Notes under the pieces: generated by a model | What the model saw: the letters and a program-made list of their open reading frames with translations, nothing else | The model's database searches: none | What the model was told of the DNA's origin: nothing | Assembly: GCA_030614785.1 (NCBI GenBank) | Contig: JAUWTJ010000030.1 | Span: 1-45,000 of the forward strand | Source: Alphaproteobacteria bacterium | Lineage (GTDB): Bacteria; Pseudomonadota; Alphaproteobacteria; M2410 | DNA length: 45,000 nucleotides | Direction of reading: 5' to 3' | In this document: positions 205 through 30,202 of the stretch, one piece after another | How the letters are laid out: every line of letters starts with the position of its first letter | Position numbering within the stretch: the stretch's first letter is position 1 | Position numbers and translations under genes: made by a program

Positions 205-1326
205 TTGAATGAAAATGACAAAAAGCTGGCAATCGATATATGGCTGCACCTCAATTATATATCGCCCTATAAGCCCACCTTGTATTTGACTGCGACCAGA
301 GAGGCTGCGTTGAAAGAGCGGGAACGACCATTTGTTGCCAAATGGGACCCACGCCTATCCGAAGAGCTCTCCCGTCATCTGGATTTGATCCCTCGGCCGA
401 CTCACCATGAAATTGCCAGAAGCGCGCTGGCGGCTCTTGCAATCGGCGATCATCGCGAAGCGAAGCCAATCTTTGACCAATTGACAGATCAGCCGCTACC
501 AAACTCACACGAAGTTGGCTACTCAGTGCGGTTTTTTGCCAAGCATGATGAGTATGCAAGAGCATTTGATATTGCCGAGAAACATGCTCTCAGGATTCTG
601 ACATCAGGGACCTACAGAGAGGTAAGCGAATTTACTGACAACATAATTGAGCTGCGGCACCCGGACGGGAACCATCAGGACCAACGTTGGATGTCTGATG
701 AATATGTTCGGGCGCGGTGGCCTGAGTTTATCCATGCCATCGACCTCTTGATGGTTGATCGCTTTGGACCGGGACATGGCAGATTCCTCAGTGCCGAGCT
801 CGAAAGTATTCGACCAAGGGACTATCGAACTCGTCCAGACGTGACGACGAGCCTGGCAAGGGCTTACGACAAAGATGTTGTAAAGTGGGCGATGGCTGAG
901 ATTGATATGTTTCTGAATTCTGATAGTGATCTGGATGATGACTTGTTGGATTTGCCAACAGACATCCTTCTCATTAGATACTCGCGTCACAACAAGGAGA
1001 TTTTTGAATCAGTTGATCGCCTTTTTTGTGCCGACAAAAGATCAAGATACAAGATCATTGCAAGAACCGGGCTTTTCCCATCTCATAGAACGGAGGACCT
1101 ATTGTTTCGCATCGCACAGTATGATGGGCTGGAAGGGTATGAGCCAATGTATGTCAGGCAAACCATTGCGATGTTTGTCGGATATAACAGGGAGAAATTC
1201 CTGAAGAATCAGAGATCCTGGGTTGGAGGCGACGCAGAAGATCTCCTGGTATCATTTGTAAGGGGTGAGCGGATTCAGATTGACGAGCGTGACAAGGAAG
1301 ATCGCGGGCCCATCGTTTGCAAGTGA
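205..1326 (+). CDS. Hypothetical protein, probably 5'-truncated by the adjacent IS
   Basis: I do not recognise this protein. It is 373 residues from a TTG codon at 205, but no ATG or convincing Shine-Dalgarno sequence stands there. The same frame stays open upstream to 115 and reads like normal protein (LGLQSDYGPVEQLGRLEKRY), so the original gene almost certainly began further left and was cut by the insertion sequence. It is hydrophilic and mostly charged helical sequence, with no signal peptide or membrane segment. A segment near residues 70-115 could form TPR-like helix pairs, but this is weak. An acidic run (DSDLDDDLLDLP) lies near residue 245. It is visibly more AT-rich than the downstream genes, consistent with horizontally acquired DNA. 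It may be a non-functional remnant. Confidence 0.55.
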   Translation: MNENDKKLAIDIWLHLNYISPYKPTLYLTATREAALKERERPFVAKWDPRLSEELSRHLDLIPRPTHHEIARSALAALAIGDHREAKPIFDQLTDQPLPNSHEVGYSVRFFAKHDEYARAFDIAEKHALRILTSGTYREVSEFTDNIIELRHPDGNHQDQRWMSDEYVRARWPEFIHAIDLLMVDRFGPGHGRFLSAELESIRPRDYRTRPDVTTSLARAYDKDVVKWAMAEIDMFLNSDSDLDDDLLDLPTDILLIRYSRHNKEIFESVDRLFCADKRSRYKIIARTGLFPSHRTEDLLFRIAQYDGLEGYEPMYVRQTIAMFVGYNREKFLKNQRSWVGGDAEDLLVSFVRGERIQIDERDKEDRGPIVCK

Positions 1327-1335
1327 GGCGAAATC

Positions 1336-1782
1336 TCACGCCACCTGCCTGAGCGCCTCTCCGAGCACCATCGCCCCCGCCAGCGCCACATTTAAACTTC
1401 GCGCACCCTCCGCCATCGGGATCAGGACCCTGGCGTCGGCGCGGGTGTGGACCTCGTCGGGTACACCGGCTGACTCGCGGCCGAGCAGGAGCGTGTCATC
1501 CGAGGCGAAGCTGAAGCCGGTATAGGGCTCGGCGGCTTTGGTGGAGAGCAGGATGATGCGTGCCGAACCCCGGGTTTCGAGAAATGTTGCCCATGAATCA
1601 TGGCGGTGAATGGTCGCACGTTCGAGGTAATCCATGCCCGCGCGCTTCAGGCTCTTGTCCGAAAATGAGAATCCGCAGGGCTCAATGATATCGACGGGTA
1701 CGCCCATGCAGGCACCGAGGCGAATCAAAGTGCCTGTGTTCTGCGGAATATCGGGCTCAAAGAGGGCAAGGCGCAGGGGCAA
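1336..1782 (-). CDS. trmL: tRNA (cytidine(34)-2'-O)-methyltransferase TrmL (SpoU/TrmD superfamily)
   Basis: TrmL 2'-O-methylates the wobble base of tRNA-Leu isoacceptors using SAM. The 148-residue protein is a typical minimal SPOUT enzyme with the three family motifs: PDIPQNTGTLIRL near residue 10, LLLGRESAGVP near 97-107, and LIPMAEGARSLNVALAGAM near 119-137, which together form the trefoil-knot SAM site. The start is a TTG at 1782-1780. A TGA lies only one codon further upstream in this frame, so no earlier start exists, and AGGAG stands about ten bases before the TTG. The gene is transcribed away from petA and ends ten bases from the stop of the convergent hypothetical gene. Confidence 0.9.
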   Translation of the reverse strand: MPLRLALFEPDIPQNTGTLIRLGACMGVPVDIIEPCGFSFSDKSLKRAGMDYLERATIHRHDSWATFLETRGSARIILLSTKAAEPYTGFSFASDDTLLLGRESAGVPDEVHTRADARVLIPMAEGARSLNVALAGAMVLGEALRQVA

Positions 1783-2040
1783 GGCTCAATGTCTCCTGTT
1801 GAATGTGCAAGCCAGGTGCAGCTTTGAACGTGTTTCGCAGTGCAGGCCGCAGAAGGGCTGGACATTTGCGCACCTTGTGTGCAAAACACGCTGATACGTC
1901 TCCTATCTTTCCGATCCAGTCAAGTTCGACAGTGTGATGGTCCGGGGTGACGTGACATGAGTTCCATCTGTATTTCGTGCCCCGGTTCGTATTGTCGCCG
2001 AGGCCGAGCTTAAAATAAAATAACAAAAAGAGGATTCCCG

Positions 2041-2610
2041 GTGGCAGAGACACACGCTCACGCAACTGAGGCAGGCGACGACACAACCAGGCGCGACATT
2101 CTATATATCGGCACAGCGACGTTTGCTGCGGTCGGGCTTGCGCGCGGTGTCGTTTGGCCGCTCATCCATCAAATGAACCCGGCAGAGAACGTGAAGGCGC
2201 TGGCGTCTATCGAAGTCGATATCAGCCAAATTCCCGTGGGCCAGCAGATCAAGATTTTGTGGCAGGGCAAGGCGGTTTTTGTTCGGCACAGAACCGCAAA
2301 CGATATTGCAAAGGCTCGGGCCGATGACACTGCAGCGGATTTGAAAGATACATCGAACCGACCCACTGATGCAGAACGGGTCGTGGATGACAAGGGGACT
2401 TCGCGTCCTGAAATTCTTGTTCTCCTCGGGGTTTGTACGCATCTTGGCTGTGTGCCACTTGCTGATCGCGGGGACTATGACGGCTGGTTCTGCCCCTGTC
2501 ATGGGTCGCACTATGATACTGCAGGGCGCATCCGCAAGGGGCCGGCTCCGGCGAACCTTGTCATTCCTCCATATGAATTCATCGAAGAATTCAAAATCAA
2601 GATCGGCTAG
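2041..2610 (+). CDS. petA: Ubiquinol-cytochrome c reductase, Rieske iron-sulfur subunit
   Basis: This is the Rieske subunit of the cytochrome bc1 complex (complex III), which carries electrons from ubiquinol to cytochrome c1 on the periplasmic face. The 189-residue protein shows a twin-arginine type N-terminus ([13 protein letters not shown], residues 15-27) leading into the single membrane anchor. The [2Fe-2S] cluster boxes are CTHLGC (132-137) and CPCHGSH (151-157), giving the two Cys and two His ligands plus the disulfide cysteines. The start is GTG at 2041, chosen because AGAGG lies a few bases upstream and the Tat motif follows. It is the first gene of petABC; petB starts 14 bases after its stop. 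Confidence 0.97.
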
Positions 2611-23335: not shown

Positions 23336-24322
23336 ATGCCCAGGTTCGACTTGATGGGATTAAACGTAAAAGAAAAGATCGACGGTGTTGTCACGCCTGA
23401 CCTGAAGAAAAAGGTCGCGGCGTGGTGGCAGGGCGTGGGCGTGGACGATCTGAACTGGCCGGAAGCGGTCGAAGACGATGGGGACGCGCCACTGGCAGAG
23501 GACGCCATTGAGGCCGCCCCCGAGAAGGTCGAAATTTCTGTTGAACTGAGCCATTTCATCAAGGTGAGCGAGATGTTGTGGGGCCAGGGATATGTGACCC
23601 CCGGCGGAAAGAGCTTCATCGACCTTTGGGGGCAACAACTTTCTCTGAACAAGGAAAAGAGCACGGCCTATCTGGGGGCGGGGCTTGGCGGGCAAGCCAG
23701 GGAGCTCAATCTTTCGACCGGATCATGGGTTACCTGCTATGAGCGACACCCTGAAATGGTGGCGGTGGCTTCGGATGAAGCAATGATGGCTGGTCTTGCC
23801 AAGAAAGTGACATCGGAGATCTACGATCCGGAAAAGCTTGAACTTGAAGCCGAAAAATTCAATGCGGTTATCGCCAAAGAAGAGTTCACCACCATTGAGA
23901 ACAAACAGGGTGTCATTGAGGCAATCTCCAATGGTATGAAAAAGTCCGGCATGTTCATGTTCACGGTATATACGGCCAACTCGCCGGATGTGGATGCCGC
24001 GAAGACGAAAGAGATGTTCGGTGATATGTTGGGCACGCCGAGCCTGTGGACAGACAAGCAATATGTCGAATGTCTTGAGAGCGCCGGGCTGGACATCCAC
24101 ATAAACGAAGAATTGTCCGACAAATACGTCGAGTTCATCAATGCCGCCTGGGGCCAGTACCGCTCTGTCGTCGACAAGATCAAAGAGGGCGACGAAACGG
24201 ATCTTGAGAAAGCGGCCCTGCTCAAGATGGTTGGGATTTCAGCTGAGCAGTGGACCCATATATCCATGAACCTGGCGTCCGGGGACATCCAGCTCAGGCG
24301 ATTCCTGGCACGGAAAATCTAG
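23336..24322 (+). CDS. Class I SAM-dependent methyltransferase-like protein, unassigned
   Basis: I do not know the function. The 328-residue protein starts at ATG 23336 with AAGGAAAG directly upstream. An acidic linker (about residues 42-65) precedes a segment EMLWGQGYVTPGGKSFIDLWG (about 82-102) that resembles the N-terminal helix of phosphoethanolamine or sarcosine-type methyltransferases. The SAM loop is present in altered form as AYLGAGLGGQAREL (about 107-120) where family members have DLGCGxG. A C-terminal helical domain follows. It may be a methyltransferase with drifted cofactor site or a non-catalytic relative. It has its own AT-rich upstream region (23157-23335) and stands before the thiC riboswitch. 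Confidence 0.6.
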   Translation: MPRFDLMGLNVKEKIDGVVTPDLKKKVAAWWQGVGVDDLNWPEAVEDDGDAPLAEDAIEAAPEKVEISVELSHFIKVSEMLWGQGYVTPGGKSFIDLWGQQLSLNKEKSTAYLGAGLGGQARELNLSTGSWVTCYERHPEMVAVASDEAMMAGLAKKVTSEIYDPEKLELEAEKFNAVIAKEEFTTIENKQGVIEAISNGMKKSGMFMFTVYTANSPDVDAAKTKEMFGDMLGTPSLWTDKQYVECLESAGLDIHINEELSDKYVEFINAAWGQYRSVVDKIKEGDETDLEKAALLKMVGISAEQWTHISMNLASGDIQLRRFLARKI

Positions 24323-24357: not shown

Positions 24358-26485
<2,128 letters not shown>

Positions 26486-26957
26486 GGGTGTGCTGTGCGT
26501 GTCGCACAAAGTTGGGTGTGGACATGTCCGTGAATGTCTGTGTCTGCTGCAATGCCGGTCATGTTGGACCAGGTGATTTTGAGCCCGCTTCTAGCCAGTA
26601 GGCAACATTGGTACTGAGAGTCGGTAGCGTTGTTGCATGACGATTTTGCAATTTGATTTCCGACAAAGCCGGGATCGAAACTTGCTCAATTTTATTTAAT
26701 CTGCTAGTCTGACGCCAGTCCAAGGGTGATCTCGTCGCGTTGATCAGATTTTATCCTGGCGTGCGACGCATTGTGGGCACATATGCTCACTGCACTGTGG
26801 ACAATAAGAATAATTAAAATGCGTCGCTTGGTCTCCGGCAACAGCCGTTGGTTAATTCGTCAAATAAATCCGAAAAGCAGGCAAGATCGGGCGTTGTGCC
26901 CGTGGTGGAAGATCGCAATTAAGCGGTGCTCCATTTATGACAGCAGGAGATGATGAC
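26486..26957 (+). other. Long structured leader / promoter region of the betaine genes
   Basis: No convincing gene lies in this 472-base gap. After the thiC stop there is a hairpin TGTGCG-TGT-CGCACA (26494-26508) and the palindrome GGACATGTCC (26520-26529). Further right, four inverted repeats follow: ACGCCAG (26712-26718) / CTGGCGT (26756-26762); immediately abutting it GCGACGCAT (26763-26771) / ATGCGTCGC (26819-26827); CGGC-AACA-GCCG (26836-26847); and CGGGC-GTTGT-GCCCG (26888-26902). A possible extended -10 promoter is TTGCTC (26682-26687), 17 bases, TAGTCT (26705-26710) with TG before the -10. AGGAG (26945-26949) sets the start of the next gene. Confidence 0.5.
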
Positions 26958-27761
26958 GTGTCTACCGTACTGAAACAGGACTTCGGTAAAGAACCCCTCG
27001 AAGTCCGCGATACCGAGCATTATCAGGATGAATATGTACAGAGTTTCGTCGAGAAATGGGACGAGTTGATCGATTGGGAGGCGCGGGCCAAGAGCGAAGG
27101 CCGGTTCTTTGTCGATATTCTGAAAGGGCGGGGAAAGGTCAAAATTCTCGATGTCGCGACTGGCACGGGGTTTCATTCGGTCCAGCTTCTCAAGGCCGGC
27201 TTCGATGTCACCAGCGCCGATGGCAATGCGGAGATGCTAGCCAAGGCCTTTGAAAACGCCCGCAATAAAGATCTGATGTTGCAAACCATCCACGCCGATT
27301 GGCGATGGTTGAACAAGGACGTTCATGGCAAATATGACGCCATTGTCTGTCTGGGCAATTCCTTTACCCATCTGTTCGAAGAACGTGACCGGCGCCGCGC
27401 GCTCGCAGAGTTTTACGCCGCGCTCAAATATGATGGGGTGCTGATCATCGATCAGCGAAACTACGATTCCATCCTCGACGATGGCTTCAGCTCGAAACAC
27501 ACTTACTATTACTGTGGCGATCAGGTGACCGCCGAACCCGAACATGTAGACGAGTCGCTGGCGCGGTTTTGTTACACGTTTCCGGATGATTCCAAGTACC
27601 ATCTCAATATGTTCCCGCTGCGCAAGTCTTATATGCGAGACCTCCTGACAGACAGCGGTTTCCAGCAGGTCAAGACCTATGGTGACTTCCAGGAAACCTA
27701 TCAGGAGAATGACCCTGATTTCTTCGTCCATGTTGCGGAAAAGAGTTACGATAATGACTAA
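26958..27761 (+). CDS. gsmt: Glycine/sarcosine N-methyltransferase (betaine synthesis, first two steps)
   Basis: GSMT methylates glycine to sarcosine and on to dimethylglycine with SAM, in the cytoplasm. The 267-residue protein closely follows the halophile enzymes: QDFGKEP at the N-terminus, VRDTEHY, the SAM loop LDVATGTGFHSVQLL (about 66-80), the acidic SADGNAEML, HADWRWLN, CLGNSFTHLFEE, DQRNYD and a C-terminal GDFQETY..NDPDFFVHVAEK. I place the start at GTG 26958 because AGGAG lies eight bases before it and homologues begin a few residues ahead of the QDFG segment; an ATG at 26937 is in frame but lacks a ribosome site. The last eight bases overlap the next gene. Confidence 0.93.
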   Translation: MSTVLKQDFGKEPLEVRDTEHYQDEYVQSFVEKWDELIDWEARAKSEGRFFVDILKGRGKVKILDVATGTGFHSVQLLKAGFDVTSADGNAEMLAKAFENARNKDLMLQTIHADWRWLNKDVHGKYDAIVCLGNSFTHLFEERDRRRALAEFYAALKYDGVLIIDQRNYDSILDDGFSSKHTYYYCGDQVTAEPEHVDESLARFCYTFPDDSKYHLNMFPLRKSYMRDLLTDSGFQQVKTYGDFQETYQENDPDFFVHVAEKSYDND

Positions 27762-28587
27762 AAGCGAGGCCGTCGAACGGGCGGAGGCTTATTACGACAG
27801 CGCCGAGGCGGACGCGTTTTACCACAGCATCTGGGGTGGTCAGGACATCCATATTGGTGTTTATCGCGATGACAGCGAGCCAATTGCCGATGCCAGCCGG
27901 CGCACCGTGGAGACCATGGCCGCACGGCTGGTCGGCGTTAATGACACGACACGCATCCTTGATCTGGGTGCAGGCTATGGCGGTTCCGCCCGCTATCTTG
28001 CGGACCGGTTCGGCTGCCGGGTGACTTGCCTTAACCTCAGCGAAACGCAAAACACGCTCAATCGAACGCTGACAGCAGAGGCCGGGCTCACCGACCGGGT
28101 GAGCGTGGTTTACGGCGATTTTGAGAATATCCCCGAGCCCGACGACAGTTTCGATATTATCTGGTCGCAGGACGCAATCCTGCACAGCGGTAACCGAACC
28201 CGCGTGCTTGATGAAGTCCGCCGGGTTCTGGGCACCGTTGGGCAATTTATCTTCACCGACCCCATGCAATCCGACACCTGCCCTGACGGGGTGCTGCAAC
28301 CCATTCTCGACCGAATCCAGCTTTCAACGCTGGCCTCGTTCAGCTTTTACCGTGCCGAGCTTGGCGCTCGTGGATTTGAAGAAGCCGATACCGAACCCCT
28401 GACCGATCAACTGCGGATGCATTACTGGCGCGTGGGACAGGCGCTGAAGGATCGCTATGACGAGGCAGTGGCGCTCTCGGGACAGACCTATGTGGATAAC
28501 ATGATCAAGGGTCTGCAGCACTGGGTCGAAGGTGCAGATCGTGGCTATCTCGCCTGGGGCATCATGGACTATCGATTAACAGCCTAG
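27754..28587 (+). CDS. sdmt: Sarcosine/dimethylglycine N-methyltransferase (betaine synthesis, last steps)
   Basis: SDMT methylates sarcosine and dimethylglycine to glycine betaine. The 277-residue protein matches the family through SIWGGQDIHIGVY near residue 25, PIADASRRTVE, the SAM loop LDLGAGYGGSARYLA (about 69-83), LNLSETQN, DIIWSQDAILHS, FTDPMQSDTCPDGVLQPILDRI and the C-terminal GLQHWVEGADRGYLAWGI. The ATG at 27754 overlaps the end of gsmt by eight bases, so the two are translationally coupled and likely made in equal amounts. Together they carry out all three methylations from glycine. Confidence 0.93.
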   Translation: MTKSEAVERAEAYYDSAEADAFYHSIWGGQDIHIGVYRDDSEPIADASRRTVETMAARLVGVNDTTRILDLGAGYGGSARYLADRFGCRVTCLNLSETQNTLNRTLTAEAGLTDRVSVVYGDFENIPEPDDSFDIIWSQDAILHSGNRTRVLDEVRRVLGTVGQFIFTDPMQSDTCPDGVLQPILDRIQLSTLASFSFYRAELGARGFEEADTEPLTDQLRMHYWRVGQALKDRYDEAVALSGQTYVDNMIKGLQHWVEGADRGYLAWGIMDYRLTA

Positions 28588-28621
28588 AGTAACGCATTGG
28601 CGAGACCAGGGGGAGATGACC

Positions 28622-30202
28622 ATGCCGGACCGTTATCGGACAGATTATCAGGTCGGTCAGGACAATTTGCGGCGTTTTGGGATGGATATTCACAATCCGG
28701 TATTCTGGGTCACGGCGATCCTCATCCTGATTTTCGTGGTCGGCACACTGATGGCGCCGGATCCGGCGGGGGTCCTTTTTGCCGGTGCCAAAGGCTGGTC
28801 GATCGGCCATTTCGACTGGCTGTTCATGGTTGGCGGCAATATTTTCGTGATCTTTTGTCTGGTGCTGATTTTCCTGCCTTTTGGGAAGATTCGCCTCGGG
28901 GGAATCGACGCTAGGCCGGAATTCTCGACTCTTTCCTGGTTTGCCATGTTGTTCTCTGCCGGAATGGGCATCGGGCTGATGTTCTGGAGTGTCGCGGAAC
29001 CTACCGGCTACTACACCAACTGGGCCGGCACACCGCTCAATGCGCCGCCCATGACACCGGCTGGCGCCGATGCTGCGATGGGAGCAACCATGTTCCATTG
29101 GGGACTGCATCCCTGGGCCATCTATGCGGTGGTCGGGCTGTCGCTGGCCTTTTTCACTTACAATAAGGGGTTGCCACTCACCATTCGGTCCAGCTTTTTT
29201 CCGTTGATGAAGGACCGGTCCTGGGGCTGGTTTGGCCATGTGATCGATATTGTCGCCGTCCTTGCGACCATCTTCGGGTTGGCTACGTCGCTGGGATTTG
29301 GCGCGCAACAGGCGGCAAGCGGCTTAAATTTTCTGTTCGGGATCGATAACGGCATTGCCACCCAGGTCGCCATTATTATCGGCGTCACTTCGGTTGCAGC
29401 TCTCTCCGTCGTCCGCGGCCTTGATGGCGGCGTAAAAGTTCTGAGCAACGTCAATATGGGGCTCGCCGCGCTGCTGCTTCTGTTTGTTGTCGTGGTGGGG
29501 CCCACGATCGCCATCTTTACGTCTATTGGAACCACGGCCGCGGCGTATGCCGAAATGATAATCCCACTGAGCAACTGGATCGGGCGAGAGGATGAAACAT
29601 TCTTCCACGGCTGGACGGTGTTTTACTGGGCCTGGTGGATTTCCTGGTCACCCTTTGTCGGCATGTTTATCGCGCGCATCTCCAAGGGCCGTACGGTCCG
29701 GGAATTCCTTGTCGCCGTGCTTTTGGTCCCGACCTTTGTGACCCTGATCTGGATGGCAAGCTTTGGCGGTTCAGCCCTGGAGCAGGCGCAGAACGAGATT
29801 GGGGCGCTGGCCAACGGCATCAGCGATGTGTCGCTCGCCATGTTCCAGATGCTCCAGAACCTGCCACTGGCGGAGATTACCTCGTTCGTCGCCATCGTGC
29901 TGGTGCTGATATTTTTTATCACTTCGTCCGATTCCGGTTCGCTGGTGATCGACAGCATCACGTCAGGCGGCATGCTGGATGCTCCGGTGCCGCAACGCAT
30001 TTTCTGGGCCACCATGGAAGGCGTCATTGCGGGCGCCTTGCTGTTTGGCGGCGGTGGCGATGCGTTGGGCGCTCTTCAGGCCGCGGCTATCACCGTTGGG
30101 CTGCCCTTTACGCTGGTCTTGCTGTTCATGTGCGTCGGTCTCTATATGGGCCTGTCGCACGAATGGCGTTTCGTCCAGGGTCCAGGAGCACGTGCAGCAT
30201 AG
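28622..30202 (+). CDS. BCCT-family glycine betaine transporter (BetP-like)
   Basis: This is an inner membrane transporter of the betaine/carnitine/choline family, 526 residues with about twelve helices. The glycine-rich segment GMGIGLMFWSVAEP matches the Na+-coupled betaine carriers rather than the CaiT exchanger. The BCCT signature FYWAWWISWSPFVGMFIARISKG is present, with the tryptophan-rich helix that forms the trimethylammonium pocket. The short C-terminal tail lacks the long basic osmosensing extension of BetP. ATG 28622 is chosen because GGGGGAG is six bases upstream; an in-frame ATG at 28616 abuts that site. It starts 34 bases after sdmt and so belongs to the betaine operon. Confidence 0.92.
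   Translation: MPDRYRTDYQVGQDNLRRFGMDIHNPVFWVTAILILIFVVGTLMAPDPAGVLFAGAKGWSIGHFDWLFMVGGNIFVIFCLVLIFLPFGKIRLGGIDARPEFSTLSWFAMLFSAGMGIGLMFWSVAEPTGYYTNWAGTPLNAPPMTPAGADAAMGATMFHWGLHPWAIYAVVGLSLAFFTYNKGLPLTIRSSFFPLMKDRSWGWFGHVIDIVAVLATIFGLATSLGFGAQQAASGLNFLFGIDNGIATQVAIIIGVTSVAALSVVRGLDGGVKVLSNVNMGLAALLLLFVVVVGPTIAIFTSIGTTAAAYAEMIIPLSNWIGREDETFFHGWTVFYWAWWISWSPFVGMFIARISKGRTVREFLVAVLLVPTFVTLIWMASFGGSALEQAQNEIGALANGISDVSLAMFQMLQNLPLAEITSFVAIVLVLIFFITSSDSGSLVIDSITSGGMLDAPVPQRIFWATMEGVIAGALLFGGGGDALGALQAAAITVGLPFTLVLLFMCVGLYMGLSHEWRFVQGPGARAA

Follow-up and report, generated by a model that had tools for sequence, protein, structure and literature searches.

A conserved structured RNA, probably riboswitch-like, in the leaders of betaine genes from uncultured Alphaproteobacteria

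In a stretch of 45,000 nucleotides from an alphaproteobacterial genome (GCA_030614785.1, contig JAUWTJ010000030.1, positions 1 to 45,000; hereafter the window), the leader upstream of the gsmt operon is, judging from comparison with related sequences, almost certainly a conserved structured RNA. The fold is conserved in the 5' leader of the gene with changes on both sides of its helices, and it recurs across lineages at the genes of one pathway, with 25 of 26 members located at betaine synthesis or import genes. Its position, its fold, the unpaired bases that are conserved and the set of genes behind it lead us to posit that the element is most likely a cis-acting, riboswitch-like regulator of betaine accumulation. 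It is previously uncatalogued in that neither Rfam 15 nor the literature searched contains it, the published survey motifs having been compared by their descriptions only. No Rfam 15 family overlaps it in the window (at gathering thresholds and at E up to 10) or at sixteen loci (E up to 0.5-1), which agrees with an earlier sequence-only reading, in which the leader was not recognised as a known riboswitch class. Among the Rfam models, those of known SAM and SAH aptamers had no match in the element, and the literature searched did not report a riboswitch for glycine betaine.

A conserved fold in the gsmt leader

The sequence-only reading described a strongly structured leader with four inverted repeats. 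All four are present: ACGCCAG/CTGGCGT (26712-26718/26756-26762, with TGATC/GATCA inside; stem 1), a second stem at 26763-26771/26819-26827, CGGC/GCCG (26836-26839/26844-26847) and CGGGC/GCCCG (26888-26892/26898-26902). The folding energy is close to that of shuffled sequences (z = -0.98 for 26700-26960; z = -1.71 for 26709-26832, with 14 of 200 shuffled versions folding equally well) and alone would not justify calling the leader a structured RNA, while the comparison with relatives does. As an observation, the description is confirmed.

Direct DNA similarity did not lead to relatives, as the leader matched only itself in 59 relatives and nothing in plasmids, and covariance models were therefore needed. 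Eighty loci from species-level genomes were collected with the gsmt protein, and the closest of these carry a long set of motifs in fixed order upstream of the gene despite strongly diverged DNA. In a first alignment of 18 cores, built by MAFFT without structure and also the source of the consensus structure, 84% of cells were paired and 19 pairs displayed two-sided changes, with a covariation of 0.368 versus 0.243 +/- 0.015 in shuffled and at most 0.137 in slid controls. Whole-genome searches were performed with covariance models built from the 18 cores (R1) and from 23 sequences (R2). The final set consists of 26 members, namely the window and 25 relatives from other genomes, with pairwise identities of 35-97% (median 53%). 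Two weak model matches (L103, L104) were dropped, being protein-coding by eye and without the core motifs. In the final set, 87.1% of cells are paired, both sides have changed in 24 of 32 core pairs and covariation reaches 0.390 (shuffled 0.230 +/- 0.012; slid at most 0.131); this alignment is biased towards the structure, to which it was fitted, and the structure-free MAFFT alignment already gives the same result. Covariation in relatives, which the sequence-only reading had proposed as the check on its stems, is thus strong for the conserved fold, including the second stem (P2).

According to our model, a hairpin (P1) adjoins a three-way junction in which P0 encloses P2 and P3; downstream of these, a variable 3' domain extends as far as the ribosome-binding site. 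The parts of the element in the window are as follows:

26724-26729 / 26751-26756, + strand: hairpin P1, GGGTGA / TTATCC, third pair an invariant G-U
26758-26761 / 26858-26861, + strand: junction-closing helix P0, GGCG / CGTC, enclosing P2 and P3
26763-26771 / 26819-26827, + strand: helix P2, GCGACGCAT / ATGCGTCGC, containing P2a, P2b and the A-rich strand
26773-26779 / 26784-26790, + strand: hairpin P2a, GTGGGCA / TGCTCAC, about one base out of register with the consensus in the window
26790-26793 / 26797-26800, + strand: short hairpin P2b
26800-26819, + strand: A-rich joining strand GACAATAAGAATAATTAAAA, several unpaired A positions kept in at least 80% of the 26 members
26828-26855, + strand: hairpin P3, with CGGC/GCCG at its tip
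26862-26868, + strand: unpaired AAATAAA after P0, AAA kept in 24-26 of 26 members
26876-26932, + strand: variable 3' domain with hairpins CGGGC/GCCCG and ATCGC 26912-26916 / GCGGT 26923-26927

P1, one base upstream of P0, forms 153 of the 156 cells of its six pairs across the 26 members, versus 51-67% in slid controls, and its pairs exchange C-G with T-A and G-C with A-T. In P2, 98.4% of cells are paired and five of seven core pairs changed on both sides (26 sequences). P0, P2a and P2b are each paired in 88.5% of cells, with two-sided changes in four of six consensus pairs, six of seven pairs and four of six pairs, respectively. P0 has four pairs in the subgroup of the window and six elsewhere, and P2 is two pairs longer in this subgroup. 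Five of six consensus pairs of P3 show two-sided changes, and its lower proportion of paired cells (69.9%) is due to a shifted register in one subgroup. Among the unpaired parts, conservation is best in the A-rich strand and in the AAA that follows P0. In the 3' domain, a helix-plus-hairpin arrangement recurs in most members with differing sequences, at a mean folding z of only -1.2.

The repeats that were originally pointed out correspond only in part to this architecture. The second stem is P2 and CGGC/GCCG is the tip of P3, while stem 1 and the inner stems of the second stem lie outside the conserved fold. Stem 1 was rejected, as the equivalent bases in L001, L002, L003, L004 and L006 form one to four of the seven pairs. 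Its 5' arm lies between the predicted -10 box (26705-26710) and the predicted transcription start, the stem is probably not fully transcribed, and its 3' arm is in relatives part of P1 and P0 instead. The inner repeats TTGT/ACAA and CACA/TGTG are incompatible with the conserved P2a and the A-rich strand GGACAATAAGAATAA. Coaxial stacking, which had been suggested for the abutting stems, does not apply to them, but the argument holds for other helices (P1 beside P0).

Strand, promoter and downstream genes

The RNA lies on the gene strand: the paired cells of the 26 members contain 112 G-U but 21 A-C combinations. Because an RNA helix accepts G-U pairs, an excess of A-C would be expected if the opposite strand were the one transcribed; this possibility was rejected, despite the better folding of the reverse strand (z = -3.64). 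The predicted signals and the genes of the operon are as follows:

26682-26687, + strand: predicted -35 box TTGCTC of a sigma70-like promoter
26705-26710, + strand: predicted -10 box TAGTCT, extended (TGC-TAGTCT), after a 17-base spacer
26945-26949, + strand: ribosome-binding site AGGAG
26958-26960, + strand: GTG start, with GTG-TCG conserved in close relatives
26958-27761, + strand: gsmt, glycine/sarcosine N-methyltransferase (NF051855, 488.9 bits, cut-off 350)
27757-28587, + strand: sdmt, sarcosine/dimethylglycine N-methyltransferase type (NF041675, 352.3 bits, below the cut-off of 550)
28616-30202, + strand: transporter of the BCCT (betaine/carnitine/choline) family (PF02028, 596 bits; TIGR00842 above cut-off)

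From this promoter, transcription would start near 26717. In 24 of 26 members, against 1.9 expected by chance, a pattern of TTGNNN-N16/17-TANNNT immediately precedes the element, and its presence also in the members preceding sdmt, proX and the aminotransferase gene indicates that promoter and RNA travel together. A start beyond 26827, which the sequence-only reading had named as an argument against its leader, was not found; the promoter-like sequence is located directly 5' of the element and the predicted start follows it. For gsmt, the start of the longest open reading frame (ATG 26937) is unlikely, because GTG 26958 fits both the relatives and the ribosome-binding site.

Further upstream in the window, a TPP riboswitch (RF00059, 67.3 bits) is located at 24387-24520 before a thiC-like gene. 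Two genes upstream of gsmt, 23336-24322 encodes a methyltransferase-like protein with weak matches to Methyltransf_11/25/31 and no NCBIfam match above cut-off. Cobalamin riboswitches were observed near the gsmt operons of two relatives, at 1127-1339 (+) and 2367-2546 (-) of L012 and at 1809-1989 (+) of L123.

Distribution and gene contexts

The element is followed by gsmt in 22 members, by sdmt in two (L121, L122, with no gsmt in between), by a proXWV-type importer in one and by an aminotransferase gene in one. The gsmt count is biased, as 19 of the 26 members were found through gsmt. Among the seven members that the model found without this bait, three precede gsmt, two sdmt, one proX and one the aminotransferase gene, so that six of seven stand before betaine genes. 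The importer member (L116/L118) stands before an operon that comprises a proX-type gene (PF04069 OpuAC above cut-off, NF008334 below cut-off), a permease-like open reading frame read from sequence only and proV (TIGR01186 above cut-off). The aminotransferase is of the branched-chain type (L101; NF009896 above cut-off).

At L101 (1501-1653) and L117, the element precedes the aminotransferase gene with no betaine gene nearby. The gsmt locus of the same genome (L010) does not carry the element, and the small contig could be mis-binned.

Every genome checked has one strong copy, and this copy always precedes a gene of the same orientation. The element is rare: R1 detected it in 2 of 385 genomes sampled from throughout the class, and among 398 genomes across the phylum only the window's own genome matched. 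R2 detected it in 10 of 317, 8 of 43 and 7 of 27 genomes of three orders, the last count comprising strong matches; an eighth match in the order with 27 genomes (L133) is weak (E 0.027). These counts are lower bounds, because the large searches were run with stricter filters and kept few candidates from each genome. Within the 80 gsmt loci, the element is present in 19, and no convincing copy precedes gsmt in the 61 remaining ones (Parvibaculum, Maricaulis, Sphingomonadales, Roseospira, Scalindua and others). Seven additional gsmt-like loci taken from the phylum sample likewise gave none. The named host records that carry the element are all metagenome assemblies.

Candidate signals, mode of control and related systems

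We posit that transcription of the leader would begin at its own promoter, that the conserved junction would read a signal of betaine or of osmotic state, and that the 3' domain would set the expression of the betaine operon (gsmt-sdmt-BCCT in the window), either at translation or at (Rho-dependent) termination. Common occlusion of the ribosome-binding site was not found, its computed openness ranging from 0.13 to 0.86 among members, and the window contains no intrinsic terminator. General ribosome-site sequestration or an intrinsic terminator as expression platform is therefore unsupported. In L001, L002 and L004, a GCGAT(GC) stretch just upstream of the gsmt ribosome-binding site can, as judged by eye, pair with either of two strands, an ATCGC on its upstream side or an ATCGC-like sequence on its downstream side, and these alternative hairpins would be a possible switch.

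SAM and SAH riboswitches of proteobacteria are expected before SAM-consuming genes. A riboswitch of this kind guarding the methyl supply would suit the SAM consumption of gsmt and sdmt and the position of 24 of 26 members before SAM-dependent methyltransferases, yet the genes behind two members, a betaine importer in one case and an aminotransferase in the other, do not use SAM. No metK, metE or ahcY context was seen among the members, and the element differs from the SAM/SAH families in having no match to their Rfam models. We consider this explanation quite improbable. The sequence-only reading had named SAM, SAH, betaine and ionic strength as conceivable signals; the member before the proX-proW-proV-type importer weakens the first two, since the importer uses no SAM, and speaks for betaine or the osmotic state, with an ionic signal also possible. 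Rather than betaine itself, the RNA may sense a nucleotide second messenger or the ionic or osmotic state (K+, Na+, ionic strength). We regard this as doubtful but well worth considering: the gene contexts fit equally well and Na+ riboswitches that control osmolyte genes have been described (PMC9337991), whereas the element has no Rfam match; beyond this, the present data do not separate such sensing from that of betaine.

Binding of the leader by a protein (an activator, repressor or nuclease) in place of a small ligand is unlikely in our opinion. Covariation cannot discriminate between the two and no expression platform is evident, but an invariant G-U pair within a multi-helix junction, together with numerous conserved unpaired bases, would be more usual for an aptamer. 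The near-shuffle folding energy of the window's leader is what chance inverted repeats in a non-functional leader would show as well; covariation across diverged members and the independent gene contexts contradict this origin, making it exceedingly improbable. Against the proposed riboswitch regulating betaine accumulation count the aminotransferase member without a nearby betaine gene and the lack of a common expression platform. The choice of ligand also calls for caution because for the opuB motif the ligand did not follow from the neighbouring gene (PMC11109978).

Several known leader RNAs resemble the element in part. The proX motif SRC-29-1 (Spiribacter, 17 representatives) is likewise an orphan riboswitch candidate before a betaine transporter gene in salt-water bacteria; compared by description only, it differs in that its P2 stem occludes the ribosome-binding site, while the present element has no consistent occlusion (PMC8632094). 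The opuB motif SRC-50-1 of Enterobacteriaceae is also a structured leader before a compatible-solute transporter, but occurs in other taxa and uses the ribosome-binding site in its P1, and its ligand is related by the authors to shikimate metabolism (PMC11109978). The Na+-I riboswitch (DUF1646 motif) belongs to a leader RNA class able to control osmolyte genes, with a different gene set, and the present element has no Rfam match (PMC9337991). The smtA motif ("Soda Lake RNA") is another large structured RNA before a class I SAM methyltransferase in halophiles, reported as an orphan of more than 350 nt found only in Thioalkalivibrio, upstream of the SAM methyltransferase gene smtA (PMC11109978, PMC9062515). 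In addition to this size and restriction, it differs in that its methyltransferase is not identified as gsmt in the published description, the comparison again being by description only. Thioalkalivibrio makes betaine by glycine methylation with GSMT/SDMT (PMC11109978, PMC9062515), and the name smtA does not specify a particular SAM methyltransferase, which makes the Soda Lake RNA suggestive: its smtA might be a betaine gene. R2 had no match in three gsmt loci outside the class, which may or may not include Thioalkalivibrio.

Tentatively, the element might be the first natural RNA known to sense glycine betaine, or the osmotic or ionic state at betaine genes, and would then coordinate synthesis and import of this major compatible solute in uncultured alphaproteobacteria. 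To our knowledge, no mechanism is known that couples betaine synthesis to osmotic state in these bacteria. A structured RNA common to synthesis and uptake operons represents one testable element for such a coupling and may itself be a natural sensor of a compatible solute or of the cellular ion state. It adds an orphan riboswitch candidate from lineages that are known almost only from metagenomes.
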